A stretch of DNA of 24,787 bases, taken from IMG/VR virus record IMGVR_UViG_3300009156_000080, positions 1-24,787 of that record; one strand, written 5' to 3'. The DNA is from a virus. The notes beneath the pieces were generated by a model. It worked only from the letters and a program-made list of their open reading frames with translations. It was not told the origin of the DNA and ran no database searches. Position numbers and translations under genes: made by a program. Position 1 is the first letter of the stretch; the number at the start of each line of letters is the position of its first letter. Shown here one piece after another: positions 1 to 20,274 of the stretch.

Positions 1-1134
1 AGCCGCACCGGCGCCGCCGAGTAGCTCGACGCGGCCCTTGTCCGCAAGCTCTTTCAGCTTCGCCGTGACCATCTTCCCGGTGATGATCGGCGGCCCCTTG
101 TCGGGGTAGCCCATGGCCGTTTGGAGGCGCCGCCCTAGCTCTTGGGGGGTCAGCCCCGCCCCGTACTCCTTGATGAGGAGGTCCTCGATGGGCGGGTGGT
201 TAAGCCGCATCTGCGCGCCCTCCCGCTTATCATAGGCCTCCTTGCGGTACTCGGCCGAGCGCTTCTTGGGGTCGAACCGGCCGGGCGTCTCGGGGATGAT
301 CTCCTTCCGGGGGTCCTTCCCGCCGTGGGTGCCCTCGATGATGGGGACCTCGCCCTCAGCGGGCTTCGCACCCTTCTTCTTTGGCACCGCGCCGAAGACC
401 CCGACCTCCTTCTCGCCAGCGTTGTGCTTCATCCACAGCCGCCACGCCGCCGCGCTGTCGGCCGCCTCCATCATCTGGGGGCTGTCCGCCACCTTGGCAA
501 GGCGATCCACTGCGGGGTGGGAGCCCGCCTCTTTCGCGCCCTTCGCTGCCGCCCGGGCCCCGCCCTGGATGCCCTGCATCTCCGCGACGACCGCCTCTAG
601 CTCTGCCTTGAACTCGGCCGGGGCCGCCTGCTTCATCTGCGCGACGTGCTCGGGCGCGCTCGGGGCGGGCTTCCCTCGGAAGGCCGCGCCCTCGCCCGCG
701 AAGCCGCCCTTGGCCGCGCGGAAGGTCGAGCCGCCGATGACGGGGAGGATGGCGGTGAGGGCGTCGCCTGGATTGTGCTCGCCCGGGGGTGCGTTGGCCA
801 CGCGGGAGGCCGCTTCGACGGGGAGCCGCACCGCCTGCTCGGCCAGCTGCGACGCCCCCACGAAGGGGTTCGGCGCCTCCTCGTTCGGGAAGGGCGTGTT
901 GGGGATGGTCGGGCGCGAGTAGATGGTGCTCTGCTGCCCCGGGTCCCCCGAGTAGGTCTTCCCCAGCCAGTCGAAGAGGGCCTTGAAACCTCGCACGGAG
1001 GCGAGGGAGCCGGGGTCCTTCACCATCCGCTCCATCGTCTCGATGCGCGGGTTCTGACGCAGCTGGGCCATCGTCTCCTCCGCCACGGTGGGCGGGGCAG
1101 GCTCGGCGGTGATCGCGTCGAAGGGGTTGGCCAT
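1..1134 (-). CDS. Putative internal virion (ejection) protein, 3'-truncated by window edge
   Basis: I translated this frame by hand from the ATG at 1134. It stays open for 378 codons to the first base of the window, so the stop codon is missing. The start overlaps the TGA of the upstream 906-aa gene by one base (TGATG), as expected for coupled translation. The protein begins MANPFDAIT, recalling the MANPFSYIT start of the 686-aa gene two positions upstream. It is rich in Ala, Gly, Pro and Lys, with helical stretches around residues 180-250. The last 60 visible residues (HPPIEDLL, LTPQELGRRL, then KLKELADKGRVELL) have the look of a small winged-helix module. I recognise no family. Its position after two other large late proteins suggests a third ejected or internal virion protein (inference); a DNA-binding role is also possible. 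Confidence 0.7.
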   Translation of the reverse strand, partial: MANPFDAITAEPAPPTVAEETMAQLRQNPRIETMERMVKDPGSLASVRGFKALFDWLGKTYSGDPGQQSTIYSRPTIPNTPFPNEEAPNPFVGASQLAEQAVRLPVEAASRVANAPPGEHNPGDALTAILPVIGGSTFRAAKGGFAGEGAAFRGKPAPSAPEHVAQMKQAAPAEFKAELEAVVAEMQGIQGGARAAAKGAKEAGSHPAVDRLAKVADSPQMMEAADSAAAWRLWMKHNAGEKEVGVFGAVPKKKGAKPAEGEVPIIEGTHGGKDPRKEIIPETPGRFDPKKRSAEYRKEAYDKREGAQMRLNHPPIEDLLIKEYGAGLTPQELGRRLQTAMGYPDKGPPIITGKMVTAKLKELADKGRVELLGGAGAA

Positions 1135-5917: not shown

Positions 5918-6760
5918 TTACGCGATCCCAGGCACCTTCGGCATGGAGCCGAGGCCCTTTCCGAGGTTACCAATCGCGTTCAGGACGCCCGTCTCGGAGG
6001 TGCCCGAGCTGGTCGAACGCTGCTGGTTGGCGATGTTCGGGGAGGTGATCCCGGCCATCATCTGCAGAGCCGCCATGAGCGACTCGATGCGCTTGTTGTG
6101 CGTCCCGAGGCCCAGCTCTACGTTCGAGTTGTCAATGGCGCGCGGGAGCGACTGGGCGGTGAGGTTCTTCACCATCCCATCCAGGTCTGCCTGGGAGAGC
6201 TGGACAGCGTTCTGCTGCAGCTGTCTTCCTTGGGTGAACTGCTCGTTCCCCATCTTCGTGGCGATGTCGCCGATCATGTTCTGGGCGCCCTCAATGGCGA
6301 TGTTTCCCGCGCGGTCGAACGCGGAGCTTCCCCGGGGGCCCGTGGAGTGGCCGCCCATGAGGAACTGCGAGGGGACGCCTCGGGAGAGGGTGCGCTGGAG
6401 GCCCTGGAGGGTGGGCCGCTGGGCCGCTTCGACGGCGGCCGTGAAGAAGGGGTTACCCCCCGGTTGGCCCGGGAGATACTTCCCCTCCATGCTATCCTGT
6501 AGGTACTGGCGCCGGGTCGGGTCGAACGCCCCCTGTTCCATCCCCGCTAGGGCTCGGTTCTCCGCCGCGCCGGCTGGTCCGAACCGGCCGCTGAACTCCG
6601 GTGCGCCACCGCTCCTGTATAGCTCTTGCAGTGTGGCGCCGAACTCCGGTCGGAGGCTCGCGAACGGGTTGAGGTCTACCGGGTTGCTGACTGACTCGGA
6701 CTTCTGCTCGCTGCCGCCGAACATCGTCCTGCTGATCTTGTCCACGCTTGGGCTCCACAT
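5918..6760 (-). CDS. Virion-type protein of unknown function
   Basis: As called the product is 280 aa, beginning MWSPSVDKISRT; an alternative start is the ATG at 6724 (MFGGSEQKSES, 268 aa). Neither has a strong ribosome site (GAG 5 bases before the first, AGGA 2 bases before the second). High G/C at third positions begins right at the first ATG, which favours the longer form. The N-terminus, rich in Ser, Gly and Gln and followed by LQELYRSGGAPEFSG, resembles a recurrent phage structural protein lacking a known function. The rest is Gln/Ala/Met-rich and probably helical (QFTQGRQLQQNAVQLSQ, MAALQMMAGI). The C-terminus is Gly/Pro-rich. The first 269 bases overlap the 3' end of the gene before it. 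It likely belongs to the virion or its internal core (inference). Confidence 0.75.
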   Translation of the reverse strand: MWSPSVDKISRTMFGGSEQKSESVSNPVDLNPFASLRPEFGATLQELYRSGGAPEFSGRFGPAGAAENRALAGMEQGAFDPTRRQYLQDSMEGKYLPGQPGGNPFFTAAVEAAQRPTLQGLQRTLSRGVPSQFLMGGHSTGPRGSSAFDRAGNIAIEGAQNMIGDIATKMGNEQFTQGRQLQQNAVQLSQADLDGMVKNLTAQSLPRAIDNSNVELGLGTHNKRIESLMAALQMMAGITSPNIANQQRSTSSGTSETGVLNAIGNLGKGLGSMPKVPGIA

Positions 6761-7169
6761 TGAACTCGAAGAGGGAGACTTTCCGGGTTACGGGGCCCAC
6801 GGACTGGTAGGCCCTGAGCCAGACTGCGTCATCCCGGCCAGTGTCATTCCCGGCCACGACCCTAGTATAGCCCCTCTCTTGGAGGAAGGCTACCATGGCT
6901 GAAATGAGGGCATTTCGGGCCTCCGTACCCCTATGGGGCAGGCCGACCACCTGGGCGCGGTCAGTCAGGCCAATCTCTGGGAGGGCCAGGATCAGCAGGC
7001 CATCCAGGGCCGACTTCGTCCGTCCCGCCGCCCAAACGACGGCCTTGCCCTCTTGAACGTCCGCCACCAGACGAAGCCACTTCCCGGCGTCTGGCGTCCA
7101 CTTCTCCAGCCACCGCACTACCTCCGGTAGCCCGAAGGCCAGGGGGTTCTCGATCTTTCCCGTCACCAT
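6492..7169 (-). CDS. Possible GNAT-like acetyltransferase-fold protein with a doubtful C-terminal tail
   Basis: The 225-aa frame starts with ATG at 7169, seven bases after a good GGAG. Residues 1-141 look like a real domain: alternating hydrophobic strands (LRLVADV, KAVVWAAG, GLLILAL, AQVVGLP), then RGTEARNALISAMVAFLQERG followed by strands ending VSLFEFNV. The strand-helix order and the Gly-rich turn before the long helix recall the N-acetyltransferase (GNAT) fold found in some phage virion proteins, but I see no unambiguous acetyl-CoA motif, so this is tentative. From about residue 145 the codons lose their G/C third-position bias and the product becomes Arg/Pro/Gln-rich, exactly where the next gene starts in the +1 frame. 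The last 75-80 residues are therefore probably an overprinted tail or the result of a frame error. Confidence 0.55.
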   Translation of the reverse strand: MVTGKIENPLAFGLPEVVRWLEKWTPDAGKWLRLVADVQEGKAVVWAAGRTKSALDGLLILALPEIGLTDRAQVVGLPHRGTEARNALISAMVAFLQERGYTRVVAGNDTGRDDAVWLRAYQSVGPVTRKVSLFEFNVEPKRGQDQQDDVRRQRAEVRVSQQPGRPQPVREPPTGVRRHTARAIQERWRTGVQRPVRTSRRGGEPSPSGDGTGGVRPDPAPVPTG

Positions 7170-7213: not shown

Positions 7214-7480
7214 TTACGCCTTCTGCTTCGCCATCAGGTTCGGCAGCTCCTTCATTACCTCGTTCGCAGCCGCCATGAGGACAGCCATGAGGAGGTTCTT
7301 GAGGAAGCGGTCCATCGTGCCATCCGAGGGCGGCTGGGGCACCGGCACGACGGGCACCGGGATGATGGGCGGCTGCACTACCGGGGGCGGTAGGGGCTGG
7401 CCGGGCTGCTGCTGGGCGACGCTCGTCATGACAGCCTGGAGGACCTGAGCGATCAGGGGCAGGAAGAGTGCGAAGTTCAT
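7214..7480 (-). CDS. Possible nested in-frame holin-like product from an internal start
   Basis: Inside the lysozyme gene, in the same frame, an ATG at 7480 is preceded by AAGGA at a seven-base spacing (7488-7492). That is better than many true gene starts in this window. Initiation there would give an 88-aa protein. Residues 2-22 (NFALFLPLIAQVLQAVMTSV) are hydrophobic enough to sit in a membrane, a Pro-rich spacer covers residues 28-52, and the basic amphipathic C-terminus ends in KQKA. Size and layout are in the range of phage holins. The full-length fusion would then be the second product of the same frame. This is inferred from the ribosome site and hydropathy only. Confidence 0.45.
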   Translation of the reverse strand: MNFALFLPLIAQVLQAVMTSVAQQQPGQPLPPPVVQPPIIPVPVVPVPQPPSDGTMDRFLKNLLMAVLMAAANEVMKELPNLMAKQKA

Positions 7481-8350
7481 GCTAGGTTCCTTCTCGGTTA
7501 CTACTGGTACTGGGGGTGGAGGTGCCGGACGGGGGGTCTCAGGATCGGCGCCACTCGGCACATAGCGTCCATCCTTATAGGCGGTTACGAGCATATTGTC
7601 GAGCTTGTTGGCCAGCCACCAGATGATGGCGGCCATCCCCACCATGGCGATAGCGGCCCCGATGTTGAAGAGGGTCTGCGTATCGGTGGCTGCGGTGCCT
7701 CCAGCCCAGGCGGCGACGCCGGCAATGGTGCCCTTTGCGGCCAGCCTGACCCGGTCCAGGAGGACCAGCTGGGTGCTCTCCTCCCTGACCTTCGTCTCGC
7801 CAGCCAGCTCCATGAGGCGGAGGTAGATGGGGACGCAGCCAACCTGCTGGTCCACCGCCTGGGGGTCATAGACGCCATCGCTGACGTACTTCCCCTGGAC
7901 GTAGATGTTGGTCCCGGACCAGACATAGGGGGAGGGCCGCCCCATATTGGCGTAGCCGAACCCGTTGAAGGTCTCCCACTTGTAGCACATCATCTCGAAG
8001 GTCCAGTTGACCTTCGACCAGCCCATGATGGCGATGGCGTCCAGGGCGGACTCTTCCCAGGTCGCGAAGGGGCCCCGGCCAGCTGGGACGATGGTGGTCC
8101 GTTGGCCCGTCCCGACGATGCGCTGCCCGTTGTGGAGGACGCCCTTGAAATCGCCGTTACACTCACGGTAGTGGGCTACCGCGATCCAGCCCCAGGGGAC
8201 GCCCGTCTGCCGCTCAATCGCCTGGTAGCGCTCCTTCCCCGCCAGGAGGGTCCTGGCGGCGCGGTCAATCGCGCCCTGCCACTCGGGCTTTACCTGGGCG
8301 ATCTTGAGCCAACTCGCGTAGCGAGGGCCCATGTACTCGAAAGTAGCCAT
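7214..8350 (-). CDS. Endolysin (muramidase-like) fused to holin-like membrane segments
   Basis: This is a 378-aa protein. GGAG lies seven bases before the ATG, which is one base past the upstream stop. Residues about 20-180 resemble a phage/proteobacterial lysozyme family: WGWIAVAHYRECNGDF, then LHNGQ, PFATWEESALDA, NGFGY, SPYVWSGT and GKYVSDG. Glu63 in the HYRECN motif is the likely catalytic acid. Residues 227-250 form a convincing membrane helix (LFNIGAAIAMVGMAAIIWWL). A Pro-rich stretch (270-283) follows, then a second hydrophobic segment at 292-312, another Pro-rich spacer, and an amphipathic C-terminus (MDRFLKNLLMAVLMAAANEV). There is no signal peptide. The protein would degrade peptidoglycan while tethered in the inner membrane, or combine lysozyme and holin roles in one chain (inference). 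No separate holin or spanin gene is recognisable nearby. Confidence 0.85.
   Translation of the reverse strand: MATFEYMGPRYASWLKIAQVKPEWQGAIDRAARTLLAGKERYQAIERQTGVPWGWIAVAHYRECNGDFKGVLHNGQRIVGTGQRTTIVPAGRGPFATWEESALDAIAIMGWSKVNWTFEMMCYKWETFNGFGYANMGRPSPYVWSGTNIYVQGKYVSDGVYDPQAVDQQVGCVPIYLRLMELAGETKVREESTQLVLLDRVRLAAKGTIAGVAAWAGGTAATDTQTLFNIGAAIAMVGMAAIIWWLANKLDNMLVTAYKDGRYVPSGADPETPRPAPPPPVPVVTEKEPSMNFALFLPLIAQVLQAVMTSVAQQQPGQPLPPPVVQPPIIPVPVVPVPQPPSDGTMDRFLKNLLMAVLMAAANEVMKELPNLMAKQKA
7488..7492 (-). promoter_or_regulatory. Internal Shine-Dalgarno (AAGGA) for the nested start
   Basis: The transcript strand reads GAGAAGGAACCTAGCATG. The AAGGA core is seven bases from the ATG, near-ideal spacing, although it lies deep inside an open frame. 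It encodes ordinary residues (EKEPS), so it could be coincidental. Confidence 0.45.
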
Positions 8351-8351
8351 A

Positions 8352-8597
8352 TCACGTCTCCGTCTTAGCTATAGCGTCCTTTAGTTCGGCGAGGGTCAGG
8401 CCGATAGAGGCCAGCTTCTCATCGAGCGTCTTCTCCTTCTCGACCGGCTTCGCGTCGGGCTCGGCCACTTCGCCCTTGGCGAGGGCTTCCGCAACCACCT
8501 CGACCGTGACTAGATGCGACTCCTGCGCGCCCGAGCTGTGCTCTCGGACCGCCACTCGGCGGGTTTCGTCCGTGTACTTCCAAGGTCCCCAGGTCAT
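8352..8597 (-). CDS. Small charged protein of unknown function between fibre and lysozyme
   Basis: This is an 81-aa protein. The ATG overlaps the tail-fibre stop (ATGA) and has GGAG at seven bases. The first half contains W/Y/T/R residues suggesting small beta strands (WGPWKYTDETRRVAV). The second half is Glu/Lys/Ala-rich and probably helical (KTLDEKLASIGLTLAELKDA). There is no membrane segment, lipobox or signal peptide, so I see no basis for calling it a spanin or holin. By position it might be a fibre-associated or assembly factor, but the function is unknown. Confidence 0.7.
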   Translation of the reverse strand: MTWGPWKYTDETRRVAVREHSSGAQESHLVTVEVVAEALAKGEVAEPDAKPVEKEKTLDEKLASIGLTLAELKDAIAKTET

Positions 8598-11302
8598 AGC
8601 TCAGCTCCCGTTGCGACAAGGAAGGCGTTAGCGTTCTCTCCGTAGATGGCCGCGTGGTGCCCTGCGGTGAGGGAGGACGCGCCGCTGCCGTTGAGCTGCA
8701 CGAGCAGCCCCGTGGCGGTGTTGAAGGACAGGCCGGTGTAGGCCCGCAGGGTAGAGGTGGCGTCAAGCACGGAGAAGTCGGTCGCGGCGCTCACGGTGGC
8801 GCCGGTGGGTACGATACGCGGCGGGCAGTAGAACATGAAGTAGTGCCCGGCCGAGGAGCTGGAGGTGGCCTGGCCGCCGCCCGACCAGCCGTTCATGTTG
8901 CCAGCCGGCCATGCCGGGAGGAAGCGCTGGCAGAGGACCGACTCGTGCGCGTATGGGCGGTGCTCGAAGGGGGTCGCGGAGACGCCCGGCTCCAGCTGGC
9001 ACTCCGTAATGTAGAGGAAGTCGCCGAGCGTCGTGTCCGTCACGTCCGACCAGATCATGACCATGATGTTCTTGGTCGAGGCCGTGTCGATGGTCGCCGT
9101 GACGGAGTAGGTGGCGAACGAGGTAGTCAGGTTGAGGTTGGCGGGCGTGTTCTCGTAGGTGTAGTTCGACTTGAGGGTCGGGTTCGTGCCCTCCACGTTC
9201 CATGCCGAGATGGGGTCGGTCTGCGTCCCATCCGCCGTGGAAGACCAGGAGACAATCGCGGCCTTGACGTTGTCCAGCTTCGTCGTGGAGGAAACCTTCG
9301 CCTTAAAGCTGAAGGTAACCTGCTGGGTGCCACTCAGGAGGGCCGGGCAGTCCCGCGACTCGATGACCTGGACGATGCCGAACTTGAGGTTGACCGTTTC
9401 GACATCGAGCGCGAGGGAGTACTTCCCACCAGTCGGAACGGTGGCGGTGTTCTGCGAGACGTCCACCACGTCGTTGCCGTCCGAGATGATGCGCCAGCGG
9501 TCCAGCAGGATCGCCGCGTCGTTGTTCGGGAACACCGAAGTGGACTCGAAGGGGCCCGCGCCGCGCCCGGCAACGGCCATGGCGCCGTTGTGGAGGAAGT
9601 TGCGGTAGCCAGCCAGCTGCCCCAGGTTCAGGTTCGTGAAGGCGCCGGTCGAGGGCGAGGTGTTGCCGATGGCTCCGGGCGTGCTGAAGCGGGCCGCCTT
9701 GACGATAGCAGAGAGGGCCGAGGAGCCATCGGTGTAGGTCCAATCGAGGTCGCCCGTGGCCTCCGTAGCGACAAGGATAGCGCCCACTGCGTCCTCCACC
9801 GCCTCGGTGAAGTCGGAGACATCCGCCGCGACGATGGCCAGATAAGACTTCGCGTTGGCGGCCGAGAGCTGCTTGACGAGGTTGCCCGTCACGCCGTCCC
9901 ACCCGACGATGGTGTTGTTCGTCACCGCCGCGCTGGGGCCGCGCACTGCGTCGTCCGTCCCGGCGACGGTGCCGGGCCAGGTCGTCCCGGCATCCTCCTT
10001 ATAGGCGTCGGAGATGAGGAAGCGCTGGCCAGTGATGCCCGTGCCTGCGCCTGCGCCGTCGAAGGTGATCGCGACGCCACCGGTGGAGACTACGGCGCCC
10101 TTCTGGATGTTCAGGTAGTAGTCCATCGCCAGCCCACCGGCGATGTAGTGCGTGGAGAAGAGGTTGACGCGGCTGTTCTTGAAGGCCTGCACGCCCTGCG
10201 AGAAGGAGCCGATGGTGTAGTTCTTGGCCGCTTCGTTGATGCCGCCGCCGTTGTCGGTCGCCTGGCGCTGGATCGAGAGCGGCCCGTAGGTGATCTCGCG
10301 CGGGTCGATGATCCCACCCTGGCTGATCTTGATGCCGATGCAGCCCGCGAAGCCCCCGTTGTAGAGGTAGACGTTGCGGAGGTCGATGATGTTATTGTCC
10401 GTCGCGAAGACGCAGGTCTGCGAGGCGCCCGTCGCGGCGATGATGGTGGTGACGATCTTCCCGTTGCTCACCCAGGCGTTGGTGAAGGTCGAGCCCTGGA
10501 GGTCAATCGCCGAGTTGGAGATGACCGTGATGGTCCAGACGGGGTTCGCGTCGGTGTTGTTCGCCTCGGTCGTGCCGACCGTCTCGCGGATACACACCTT
10601 GAAGCCCGTCGCGAGGCCAGCCGCGATGGCGGCGGTGAAGTCGCCCGAGACGCGGATCAGGCCCGAGCCGTTGTTGGCCATCCCCGTGGCGGAGATGGTC
10701 GGGAAGCCCTGGAAGTTGACGTAGGAGGTTCCCACCCAGGGGTGAGCGACCGTGAATGGCGCGTAGGTCCCCGGCTGGATATTGACGGTCGGCTTGATAT
10801 TCCCCACGTCGAAGTAGGTTGCGAGCCAGGAGAAAGCGCCCGCAGGGGTGAGCCAGGCGCCGCCTGCCGTGTCCGCCTGTCCGTTGTTCGAGTTGTTCCC
10901 GTCCACCCTCACGTAGAAGGGGGTGAGGGAAACTTGCCGCTGGCGATACGCGGTGCTGGTGATGGACAGCTTCTCGGAGTCCACCTCGGCGATGGCCGCC
11001 TGCACGTCGGTCGCAGCGATGCCGCCCGTGGGGGAGAAGGAGATCGCGCTCGCGTCGTGGGCATCCACGAGGTCGGCGAGGTGGGCCGTGATGTCGCCAT
11101 CCAGTTCCGTGATTGCGGCCTGGACGGTGGTGGCGGAGATGGTCCCAGCGGGGGTGTTGGAGATGGCGCTGGCGGCGTGGGCCGCGACGGTGTCAACGAT
11201 ATGCGCAGTCAGGTCCGCATCGTCGGCCGGGGTGTAGCCCAGGACTTCGATGATGAGCGCCTCGGTGACGTCAATGGTCCGTAGGAAGAGATACTCGGTC
11301 AC
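8594..11302 (-). CDS. Tail fibre / tailspike protein with predicted beta-helix region
   Basis: This 902-aa protein starts with GTG at 11302, overlapping the upstream TGA (GTGA), with GGAG about eight bases ahead. Residues 30-110 contain two copies of a ~36-residue unit (DAHDASAIS...ATDVQAAIAEVD) typical of phage fibre shafts. Residues ~130-420 begin YVRVDGNNSNNGQ and continue with WLTPAGAFSWL and VNIQPGTY, as in pectate-lyase-like beta-helix tailspikes, rich in Asn, Gly and Thr. Around 490-530 lies a DAVGAILV...LDWTY module shared with the 365-aa fibre gene. From about 575 (NFLHNGAMAVAGRG) to the end it resembles the C-terminal carbohydrate-binding part of many phage fibres, including CQLEPG..TPFEHRPY. 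It most likely recognises or depolymerises a host surface glycan. Catalytic residues cannot be assigned by eye. Confidence 0.85.
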   Translation of the reverse strand: MTEYLFLRTIDVTEALIIEVLGYTPADDADLTAHIVDTVAAHAASAISNTPAGTISATTVQAAITELDGDITAHLADLVDAHDASAISFSPTGGIAATDVQAAIAEVDSEKLSITSTAYRQRQVSLTPFYVRVDGNNSNNGQADTAGGAWLTPAGAFSWLATYFDVGNIKPTVNIQPGTYAPFTVAHPWVGTSYVNFQGFPTISATGMANNGSGLIRVSGDFTAAIAAGLATGFKVCIRETVGTTEANNTDANPVWTITVISNSAIDLQGSTFTNAWVSNGKIVTTIIAATGASQTCVFATDNNIIDLRNVYLYNGGFAGCIGIKISQGGIIDPREITYGPLSIQRQATDNGGGINEAAKNYTIGSFSQGVQAFKNSRVNLFSTHYIAGGLAMDYYLNIQKGAVVSTGGVAITFDGAGAGTGITGQRFLISDAYKEDAGTTWPGTVAGTDDAVRGPSAAVTNNTIVGWDGVTGNLVKQLSAANAKSYLAIVAADVSDFTEAVEDAVGAILVATEATGDLDWTYTDGSSALSAIVKAARFSTPGAIGNTSPSTGAFTNLNLGQLAGYRNFLHNGAMAVAGRGAGPFESTSVFPNNDAAILLDRWRIISDGNDVVDVSQNTATVPTGGKYSLALDVETVNLKFGIVQVIESRDCPALLSGTQQVTFSFKAKVSSTTKLDNVKAAIVSWSSTADGTQTDPISAWNVEGTNPTLKSNYTYENTPANLNLTTSFATYSVTATIDTASTKNIMVMIWSDVTDTTLGDFLYITECQLEPGVSATPFEHRPYAHESVLCQRFLPAWPAGNMNGWSGGGQATSSSSAGHYFMFYCPPRIVPTGATVSAATDFSVLDATSTLRAYTGLSFNTATGLLVQLNGSGASSLTAGHHAAIYGENANAFLVATGAEL

Positions 11303-14807: not shown

Positions 14808-15189
14808 CTTCACAGGTCACTCGGTAAGGGGGCAGCATCGGGTCGCCCGTGCCCTCCCCGATCAGCTTCATCGGTTCGGGTGGGGGCAGCGCGCGGTTCC
14901 TCGCCGCTGCGAGCTGGACGATCAGCTGCCCCATCGCCTCCTTCATCGCGTTGAACTCGTTCCGCATCTCCTGCGTCGAGACGGTCAGGGCGTCAAGCCG
15001 GGCGTTCGCCACGCCGCCGATCATAATGGGCCACGCCATGGCGCAGTCCCACTCGATCTTCGTCTTCCCGGCGCGGGTGACCTCCATCTCCCGCCAGAAG
15101 ACGCACGATTGGCACGCCTTGGGATGGGAGCAGTCCCGCTTCGCGAGTTGGCAGTATTGGCCCTTGGGGCCCGCTGGTTTTCCCGTCAT
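14782..15189 (-). CDS. Cys-rich phage protein (possible metal-binding)
   Basis: The product is 135 aa from the ATG at 15189, with AAGG seven bases upstream. A GTG at 15195 overlapping the previous stop (GTGA) is an alternative start. Counted from the ATG, Cys13, Cys20, Cys26, Cys29 and Cys49 sit in the first 50 residues: CQLAKRDC, ACQSC, then EWDCAMAW. The same order of cysteines, ending in E-W-x-C-(A/S)-x-A-W and followed by a helical MRNEF segment, occurs in a widespread small phage protein beside the tail genes of short-tailed phages (recalled family knowledge). The cysteines probably hold a zinc ion or iron-sulphur centre. The 3' end overlaps the start of the nozzle gene. The function is unknown. 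Confidence 0.7.
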   Translation of the reverse strand: MTGKPAGPKGQYCQLAKRDCSHPKACQSCVFWREMEVTRAGKTKIEWDCAMAWPIMIGGVANARLDALTVSTQEMRNEFNAMKEAMGQLIVQLAAARNRALPPPEPMKLIGEGTGDPMLPPYRVTCEDGQEQRSN

Positions 15190-15191
15190 TG

Positions 15192-15881
15192 TCACGCCTT
15201 CGTTGCTAGCACCACGTCTACGAACTTCACGTCAAAGTCCATCGCCGTCGAGGACCCGCCCAGGGCGGCGGTGACGGCCGTCTCATTCCCCACGACCGAG
15301 GCGGTGGAGAGGACGCAGACCGGGCCACCACCCGAGCCTGACGCCGTACCCTGCGAGGGCAGGGAGACGGACAGAGAGGTGACGACGGTCTCGGAGAGGG
15401 CGAGGGCGGCGGCGGGTAGGTTGGCCTGGACGATGGTCCGCGCTGCGAAGGCGGTCTCGAAGGCGGCCGTGCCGCCCGTGGGGCCCACGCTGCCGGTAGT
15501 GCAGCGGATGGCCGCGTCCTGGTAGGCTGCGTCGGTGACCTTGGTCCAGCCTGCGGGCGGAGTGGTCTGGCCGAAGAGCATCTTGGTCCCGGATGGGAAC
15601 TCCGGGCCGATGGACAGCCACGTTACGGGGCCGATGCCGGTGACGAAGCGGAACTTCCCCAGCGTCGTGTCATACGCGACAGACCCCACGACCCAGGTGG
15701 AGTCGCCGTCGATGTTCACGGTGGTGTCCGCGACGAACTCGTGGTGGCCCGTGTTCGAGTGCTCGAAGAGCAGCCACGACTCGATGATCTCGCGGAAGGT
15801 GCGTTCTTGGTTGGGGAAGATGGAGACGACCCCGGTGTCTTCCGGGAGCGTCTCATTCGGGGTAAAGGGCGGGCTGCTCAT
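15192..15881 (-). CDS. Phage tail-collar type protein
   Basis: This is a 229-aa protein starting with ATG at 15881. The ribosome site AGAGGA is eight bases away and lies in the loop side of a hairpin. Residues ~20-45 (TFREIIESWLLFEHSNTGHHEF) and ~60-90 form a lead-in seen in many phage collar proteins. The hallmark is PSGTKMLFGQTTPPAGWTKV around residues 95-115, followed by the RCTTGSVGPTGGTAAFETAF turn-rich block, which match the tail-collar domain order. The C-terminus (DFDVKFVDVVLATK) is the usual closing strand. It probably forms or decorates the tail tip or collar next to the adaptor and nozzle. There is no enzyme motif. Confidence 0.8.
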   Translation of the reverse strand: MSSPPFTPNETLPEDTGVVSIFPNQERTFREIIESWLLFEHSNTGHHEFVADTTVNIDGDSTWVVGSVAYDTTLGKFRFVTGIGPVTWLSIGPEFPSGTKMLFGQTTPPAGWTKVTDAAYQDAAIRCTTGSVGPTGGTAAFETAFAARTIVQANLPAAALALSETVVTSLSVSLPSQGTASGSGGGPVCVLSTASVVGNETAVTAALGGSSTAMDFDVKFVDVVLATKA

Positions 15882-15882
15882 G

Positions 15883-15908
15883 CTGGGGGTCCTCTAGTGG
15901 GCCCCCAG
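15883..15908 (-). promoter_or_regulatory. Hairpin that encloses the ribosome site of the tail-collar gene
   Basis: Bases 15883-15892 (ctgggggtcc) pair with 15899-15908 (gggcccccag), with one G-U pair and a six-base loop. On the transcript strand the loop and the downstream arm contain AGAGGA, the only good Shine-Dalgarno for the ATG at 15881. The stem would therefore partly hide the ribosome site. It sits in the 39-base gap after the adaptor gene. Confidence 0.6.
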
Positions 15909-15920
15909 TCTAGCACGAAC

Positions 15921-16700
15921 TCATCGGGTGAAGAAAGGGTCCCTGCGATGGGTGTGCCGGGCCGCAAAAGCGTCGGTATGGGGGATAAGCGTCTGTACGC
16001 GGCTGATCTGGAGCCGCTTGTCCCGCCCGATGACCTCGTTGAGCTTCTCGGCCGCCCGCTGGGTCCAGACGGTGGCCCGCTCCTCGTCCTCGTTCGTGAA
16101 GAACCCATATGCGGTCGCCTGCATGATGAGCCACTCCTCGGCGTTGACCGTGAACCAGTTCGTGTCGCCGCTGGCCGAGAGGGCGGTTAGGTACTTCCAG
16201 TAGGGGATCACGATGCGGTACTCGCCCGCATCTGAGTTGGCATAGAGGGAGAGGCCGTCCGAGAGGGGCCACACCTCGAAGTTCGAGGAGCCCGCCTCGT
16301 CGGAGGGTTCGCTGCGGAGGATGATCTGGGGCGGCCCGATGACGGTCTCGTCCTCGTTCTCGCCACCGGCATCGGTCGGGATGTCCGCCTCGACGGAGGC
16401 GCGGCCGTAGCCCACCTGCAGCTCCTGGGTGTCCCCAGAGGCGTGGATCATATATGGACCCACGCCGTTGACGGGGTCCAGCCTGAACTCCTTAAAGTTC
16501 GATGGGACGGCGGCCAGCACCCGGGTGTCCGGCTGCGTGATGAGCACGTCCGTCTTCGCCTTCATAACCTCGAAGTTATGCCGCGTCTGCAGCGTCTTCA
16601 GCGCCCGGTTGAGATAGGTCCCAATCAGCGCCTGGACGGCAGTCGGCACGTCGATGAGGTTGGTGGCTACTTCCGTCTGTAGCTCAGAGTAGGTGGCCAT
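15921..16700 (-). CDS. Head-to-tail adaptor protein (SU10-adaptor-like)
   Basis: This is a 259-aa protein starting MATYSELQTEVATNLIDVPT. An N-terminal helical hairpin (LIGTYLNRALKTLQTRHNFE) is followed by beta strands (FKEFRLDPVNGVGP, IILRSEPSD, FEVWPLSDG, YRIVIPYWKYL) and a C-terminal helical segment (WLIMQATAYGFFTNEDEERA, then TQRAAEKLNEVIGRDKRL). This order and the opening sequence match the podovirus adaptor family that binds beneath the portal and closes the filled head (family knowledge). No strong Shine-Dalgarno precedes the ATG. Its start lies three bases after the stop of the +1 frame of the previous gene, so translation may be coupled to that frame. Confidence 0.8.
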   Translation of the reverse strand: MATYSELQTEVATNLIDVPTAVQALIGTYLNRALKTLQTRHNFEVMKAKTDVLITQPDTRVLAAVPSNFKEFRLDPVNGVGPYMIHASGDTQELQVGYGRASVEADIPTDAGGENEDETVIGPPQIILRSEPSDEAGSSNFEVWPLSDGLSLYANSDAGEYRIVIPYWKYLTALSASGDTNWFTVNAEEWLIMQATAYGFFTNEDEERATVWTQRAAEKLNEVIGRDKRLQISRVQTLIPHTDAFAARHTHRRDPFFTR

Positions 16701-19920: not shown

Positions 19921-20274
19921 TCAAGCACCCCGGCGCGGAGAGGGGGCACTGACGCCAAACTGATGAGCCGCACCATTCAGCGGCTCGTAGCGGTAAAGGG
20001 TCCGTTCCCCCTTGACGGTGAGGATGGTCCCCACTGCGAGGATACGGACGGCCATCGGCCGGGCGAGCATCCCGCAGCCCGGGTAGGCTGAGACGGCTTC
20101 GGCCCGGTCCCCTTGGTCGGCGAGGTCAGTGAAGCCCGCCGCCTCGTCCAGGGTATCGCAAACTAGACCGGCCCGGAGGATGGCCTGCTCGGCGAAGACC
20201 GTCTCCTCGGCCCGGGCGGAGAAGGCTGAGATGGCCCAGAGTAGGGCGCCGAGTGCGAGGGCGATAGCCTTCAT
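19921..20274 (-). CDS. Small exported protein of unknown function
   Basis: The product is 117 aa from the ATG at 20274, which has GGAG six bases upstream. An upstream in-frame start (20358) would pass through two hairpins and hide the signal peptide. The N-terminus MKAIALALGALLWAISAFSA followed by RAEETV is a textbook Sec signal peptide, with likely cleavage after ARA. The mature part is ~95 residues with two cysteines (LVCDTLDE and YPGCGML) that could form a disulphide in the periplasm, then strands AVRILAVGTILTVKGERTLY. It resembles small periplasmic proteins of proteobacteria more than virion parts, although it lies between scaffold and capsid. It could be a host-acquired 'moron' gene, perhaps acting on the envelope during infection (inference). 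Confidence 0.7.
   Translation of the reverse strand: MKAIALALGALLWAISAFSARAEETVFAEQAILRAGLVCDTLDEAAGFTDLADQGDRAEAVSAYPGCGMLARPMAVRILAVGTILTVKGERTLYRYEPLNGAAHQFGVSAPSPRRGA

Follow-up and report, generated by a model that had tools for sequence, protein, structure and literature searches.

A single open reading frame in a metagenomic genome fragment of an uncultured, soil-type phage encodes a lysozyme-like domain, a membrane helix, proline-rich linkers and C-terminal helices in one polypeptide of 378 amino acids, and within it an in-frame ATG preceded by a Shine-Dalgarno-like AAGGA stands at the place where, in sister phages, the lysozyme gene ends and a separate membrane gene begins. The frame is fused in the same way in a second phage, which retains both the ATG and its ribosome-binding site, and the 88 codons that begin with the ATG are under purifying selection (60% amino acid identity between the two phages, dN 0.34, dS 0.95). 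On the whole, we lean towards an account in which the gene encodes an endolysin, arose by fusion at a gene boundary, kept the old second start and yields two lysis proteins.

Layout of the reading frame and its lysozyme-like domain

The stretch of DNA analyzed, referred to here as the window, is IMG/VR record IMGVR_UViG_3300009156_000080 (24,787 bases), a genome fragment with genes on the minus strand in a T7-like order from terminase through tail to internal proteins and with a portal gene that matches PHROG 332. The fused frame runs on the minus strand from an ATG at 8350 to 7214, which agrees with an initial annotation made from the sequence, to which the strand is added here. Its catalytic domain, residues 1–190 (7781–8350), was modeled confidently by AlphaFold (mean pLDDT 95.3) and carries a candidate catalytic acid, Glu63 (codon 8162–8164), in the motif HxRE[C/S], here HYREC; this glutamate, already singled out in the initial annotation, is invariant among 46 members of the family. 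A helix at residues 193–218 (7697–7774, pLDDT about 61–71) lies between the domain and a longer AlphaFold helix at 224–259 (7574–7681) that includes the membrane segment, located by hydropathy at 226–250 (peak 1.88) and previously placed at 227–250. This helix after the catalytic domain is conserved in the relatives L085, L089 and L090 discussed below, in support of the earlier reading of the protein as a membrane-tethered lysozyme. Downstream of it are a first proline-rich linker (residues 266–290, 7481–7555), a helix at 297–312 (FLPLIAQVL..., 7415–7462) with a second hydrophobic peak at 293–311, a second proline-rich linker evident from the sequence (residues 314–341, 7328–7411) and a C-terminal helix at 345–377 (7220–7318); both spacers and the additional hydrophobic segment had been described correctly, as had the AAGGA (7488–7492) seven nucleotides before the in-frame ATG of Met291 (7478–7480). 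The nested frame opened by this ATG (7214–7480) encodes 88 amino acids and has its stop codon in common with the fused frame.

Two neighboring genes on the minus strand served as position markers in the relatives, a tail fibre gene upstream (8594–11302; PHROG 4492 tail fibre, E 2.7e-26) and a gene of the METGRIENPLAFG family downstream (6492–7169), which is 55–77% identical in L085, L089 and L090 and has the same place in every relative. An acetyltransferase label for the downstream gene was dropped, as the gene is without any family match. This gene (7169–6492) overlaps the next one (6760–5918, minus) by 269 nucleotides (6492–6760) in a different frame, with a similarly long overlap of about 210–310 nucleotides in L085, L089 and L090; the overlapping tail keeps similar motifs (NRHEPVQG, ERWRPGVQRPVR), and the other frame alone may account for this. 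Elsewhere in the window, an open reading frame of 117 amino acids (19921–20274, minus) between the capsid and scaffold genes has a signal-peptide-like start, MKAIALALGALLWAISAFSARAEE, and looks secreted; it has no family match and no counterpart in the same gap of L085.

The fused protein matched none of the Pfam, PHROGs or NCBIfam models, curated endolysin models included, its domain matched no solved structure by sequence, and when the full protein or the domain was used as a single query against viral and bacterial contigs, no relatives were returned. A tblastn match (44%) to a 'peptidoglycan-binding protein' of Bradyrhizobium phage ppBjS10J-1 was therefore used as a bridge, and through it a lysozyme family was reached that is present on more than 100 viral contigs without a match to any Pfam or PHROG model. 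Its members have the N-terminal domain in common and differ in their C-termini, which consist of a peptidoglycan-binding domain, a proline-rich linker with a short hydrophobic tail, or a membrane helix, and relatives of the domain occur fused to PG_binding_1 or to CHAP. The best PDB fold matches of the domain were goose-type lysozyme (GH23), FlgJ (GH73) and lytic transglycosylases, all weak (TM about 0.41, E at least 0.6), and nearly all of the matches were lysozyme-superfamily enzymes. Given this fold and the invariant glutamate, we take the domain to be that of a divergent lysozyme-superfamily endolysin, presumably able to cleave peptidoglycan, which would be held at the inner membrane by the helix that follows. 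A Gram-negative host is suggested by the Bradyrhizobium relatives and by the tethering of the lysozyme to the membrane. In two other loci, L086 (15580–16989) and L111 (3524–4870), a CHAP-like hydrolase domain precedes the lysozyme domain in one open reading frame, giving CHAP–lysozyme–TM proteins.

The gene boundary in related phages

Close relatives of the window phage were found via the neighboring tail protein. The nearest complete one, L085 on contig G001, has a fused frame of 367 amino acids (14867–15970) that is 70% identical over its full length and contains no internal stop. Its nested start, Met286, reads AAAGGAGCCTGAT-ATG-AAC as against GAGAAGGAACCTAGC-ATG-AAC in the window, with AAAGGAG six nucleotides before the ATG. 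L084 breaks off before the nested site, as does L086 at its contig end, and the window and L085 are the two complete fused examples. The initial annotation had made its case depend on relatives keeping the internal ATG and ribosome site, and the only other complete fused example retains both.

In L089 and L090, which are about 50% identical and have the same neighbors on both sides, the lysozyme frame stops at the homologous place, corresponding to the first proline-rich linker of the window protein. Eleven nucleotides before that stop codon begins a separate membrane gene with a good ribosome site, encoding a protein of 134–137 amino acids with three hydrophobic segments. At the other contig end, in G002, the lysozyme stop and the start that follows overlap in ATGA; the sequence before it, GAGGAGCCGAA, aligns with AAGGAACCTAGC of the window. 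The separate lysozymes end in ...GITGEKDGLA (L089), ...KTEEKVDGTP (L090) and ...PDEEEPK (G002), and the nested ATG of the window occupies the same place as the start of the membrane gene in these three phages. The membrane proteins encoded in L089, L090 and G002 are homologues of one another, L111 has the same gene order with a homologous membrane gene, and this three-helix protein is a probable holin. A counterpart of the separate gene is absent from the window and from G001 in any frame. Also in this group, the G002 homologue of the window tail protein at 14813–12975 has an in-frame insertion of ~640 nucleotides near codon 111 (L086, 10328–10963).

From this comparison, the window frame appears to join two genes in frame where they used to meet, with the second start retained. 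In a tree of the lysozymes, the window and L085 stand beside L089 and L090 (support 99/93), among phages with the separate gene; the tree is rooted only at its midpoint, and the direction of change is therefore one that we infer. Because the two fused examples sit among phages with a separate gene, the simplest history would be one in which the genes were separate first and fused later, with an unrelated segment taking the place of the old membrane protein. In the ancestor, a three-helix membrane protein, probably a holin, would have been encoded by a gene of its own whose start overlapped the end of the lysozyme frame. On the branch leading to the window and L085, this gene would have been replaced by an unrelated segment of 80–90 codons in the lysozyme frame, and with no intervening stop the two cistrons would have become one open reading frame that retained the old start signal, AAGGA(G) and ATG.

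The initial annotation recognized no other holin in the window, which holds within the 24.8-kb fragment, and proposed that the single frame may supply the lysis functions. The latter proposal was not supported: the window is incomplete, and two further candidates are present on G001. One is a C-tail-anchored late protein of 122 amino acids with a strong ribosome site (L105, 1696–2061), a holin candidate; the other, of 75 amino acids (L106, 6595–6819), has an N-terminal membrane helix and a coiled coil, with weak Rz-like spanin scores (E 0.06–0.1). In the fused frame itself, neither a lipobox nor an Rz-like partner stood out on reading. As the window is a fragment and its relative's genome has other membrane genes, the fused frame cannot be called the only holin. 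Another gene beyond the window, such as that for the 122-amino-acid protein, may be the real holin and the fused tail an accessory, which would be compatible with either one or two products from the fused frame. This protein has a C-terminal membrane segment and is absent from the sister phages that have the three-helix gene, and its gene lies directly after the one matching the left end of the window, which stops short of that position. Against it, the protein has no family match and the window phage's own genome is not covered there; we regard this alternative as a real possibility, although on the improbable side.

The nested start and the C-terminal segment

Of the 197 internal in-frame ATGs that the window contains, the nested site ranked 30th by pairing with the anti-Shine-Dalgarno sequence alone, and Shine-Dalgarno strength alone was accordingly rejected as proof of a nested start. 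A home-made start score modeled on RBS calculators, combining pairing, spacing and mRNA folding, was adopted after this pairing-only result. Scored in this way, the nested site came first among 20 candidate starts in the window frame, by 10 kcal/mol, and first among 17 in L085, by 7.6 kcal/mol, where it equaled the frame's own start and narrowly missed the outlier fence. The weaker L085 score was not reached by any of 139 other internal ATGs in window genes, and among 40 lysozyme frames of the family, the window and L085 had the largest gaps to the runner-up, the window's being the best internal site.

Synonymous recoding revealed no Shine-Dalgarno excess. The motif follows largely from the peptide KEP-x-M (P = 0.94 in the window, 0.43 in L085), which, given the codon use of this phage, nearly always spells a good Shine-Dalgarno sequence, and the nucleotides alone are therefore no independent proof of selection for a ribosome site; the mRNA was unusually open in the window (P 0.01) and not in L085. 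Position and conservation carry the argument for a nested start instead, as KEP-x-MN is conserved while the rest of the linker drifts and lies where the sister phages' gene starts, and internal initiation at the nested ATG is likely on these grounds. In L131 (3947–4867) and L135 (3947–4849), the lysozyme is followed by an in-frame hydrophobic tail of 128–133 amino acids, possibly another fusion of a lysozyme with a membrane protein, and a Shine-Dalgarno sequence, GATAGGAG, stands upstream of an internal ATG at codon 176 (Met176). This ATG falls within the lysozyme domain and is outscored as an internal start, and these loci were therefore not counted in support as a second fused case.

The 88-amino-acid segment matched nothing except its counterpart in L085, with no holin or other family match in Pfam, PHROGs or NCBIfam, and homology with the displaced membrane protein was rejected (hhalign probability 0.4%). 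It is only moderately hydrophobic in the window, and its two helices, at 297–312 and 345–377, were modeled by AlphaFold with low to moderate confidence. The hydrophobic peak falls in the first helix in the window (293–311) and in the second in L085 (337–355): the first segment is amphipathic in L085 and, by hydropathy, not a membrane helix, and the C-terminal one is a clear membrane-type segment in L085 (FLKNLLTAVLVAAAAVVI) and weaker in the window. These observations did not support the holin proposed in the initial annotation. The segment could be a small holin or holin-like membrane protein or merely a membrane-active tail, and a true holin role for it is doubtful.

Only the full-length protein may be made, with its C-terminal helices and linkers forming the membrane-active tail of an endolysin and the nested ATG a relic of the former gene boundary. 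In many members of the family the C-terminus does consist of a proline-rich linker with a tail of hydrophobic or amphipathic character, such as SIGAFIASIFAAIFKRK, and the Shine-Dalgarno sequence, ordinary in strength, follows from the peptide; yet the tail starts exactly at the sister phages' gene start, and neither fused frame has a better internal start than the nested site. This reading is on the improbable side, a little more so than a holin elsewhere. An unremarkable extension of the frame with an accidental Shine-Dalgarno sequence and ATG is very improbable: 30 of the 197 internal ATGs in the window pair as well with the anti-Shine-Dalgarno sequence, but conservation of the site in L085 and its placement at the sister phages' gene start largely refute chance. 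An error of sequencing or assembly that erased the boundary between two genes, whether a stop codon or a frameshift, conceivable in metagenomic contigs, is the least probable of all, given that two contigs from different records, with proteins 70% identical, are both fused without a stop and lack the displaced gene.

Under the preferred account, two products would most likely be made, a membrane-tethered lysozyme of 378 amino acids with extra helices and a membrane-active protein of 88 amino acids from the nested start, the latter triggering or assisting lysis. Counting against it are the restriction of complete fused examples to two, the unrelatedness of the tail to the displaced protein, the absence of a holin family match, the ordinary pairing that the KEP peptide explains and the L085 mRNA, which is not unusually open. 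A stronger version, in which one gene of Gram-negative type provides both a tethered lysozyme and, from a leftover nested ATG, a separately made holin that has the stop codon and membrane module in common with it and can co-assemble with it, is unlikely.

Comparison with known endolysins

Several known systems resemble parts of this arrangement. Endolysins of the Enc34 type (PHA02564; Enc34 ORF39, M4Lys) have a C-terminal two-helix membrane domain (PMC8943055) and, like the fused frame, place an N-terminal domain of the lysozyme superfamily (GH23/GH73 related) before a membrane helix that is itself preceded by a second helix, in a Gram-negative-type phage. Enc34 differs in that its holin and spanin are encoded separately, and neither a nested start nor an extension at the C-terminus is described for it (PMC8943055); its endolysin was matched neither by sequence among solved structures nor among the fold matches listed. 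LysAP of phage AP1, a C-terminal SAR-type endolysin, requires its C-terminal membrane domain for lysis and has its holin gene adjacent (PMC8879335). It is like the fused frame in being an endolysin with a C-terminal membrane domain, whereas its holin is a separate gene. In TpeE of Clostridium sporogenes, a natural holin–endolysin fusion (PMC9527704), both functions are likewise joined in one polypeptide, but the holin comes first and no nested start is described, while the window tail is C-terminal and only putatively a holin.

Endolysins made as two polypeptides from in-frame internal starts are known from CTP1L (PMC4777826) and from a survey (PMC9430671), and the nested reading proposed here is similar in that one gene would give two in-frame products with a common stop codon. 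The surveyed phages infect Gram-positive hosts, Gram-negative phages having been excluded as unlikely (PMC9430671), and CTP1L has a cell-wall-binding subunit as its short product, whereas here that product would be a membrane protein. Membrane-tethered endolysins and nested-start endolysins are thus both known already. The literature searched yielded no report of their combination, a lysis gene of Gram-negative type in which a lysozyme–TM protein continues in frame into a further membrane segment and the second start survives. The natural series from separate, overlapping genes (G002, L089, L090 and L111) to the fused frame (the window and L085) offers a test of lysis gene merger and of second-start use. 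If the account is true, the nested-start endolysins, known from phages with Gram-positive hosts, would come to include a lysozyme that is tethered to the membrane and belongs to a phage of Gram-negative type.
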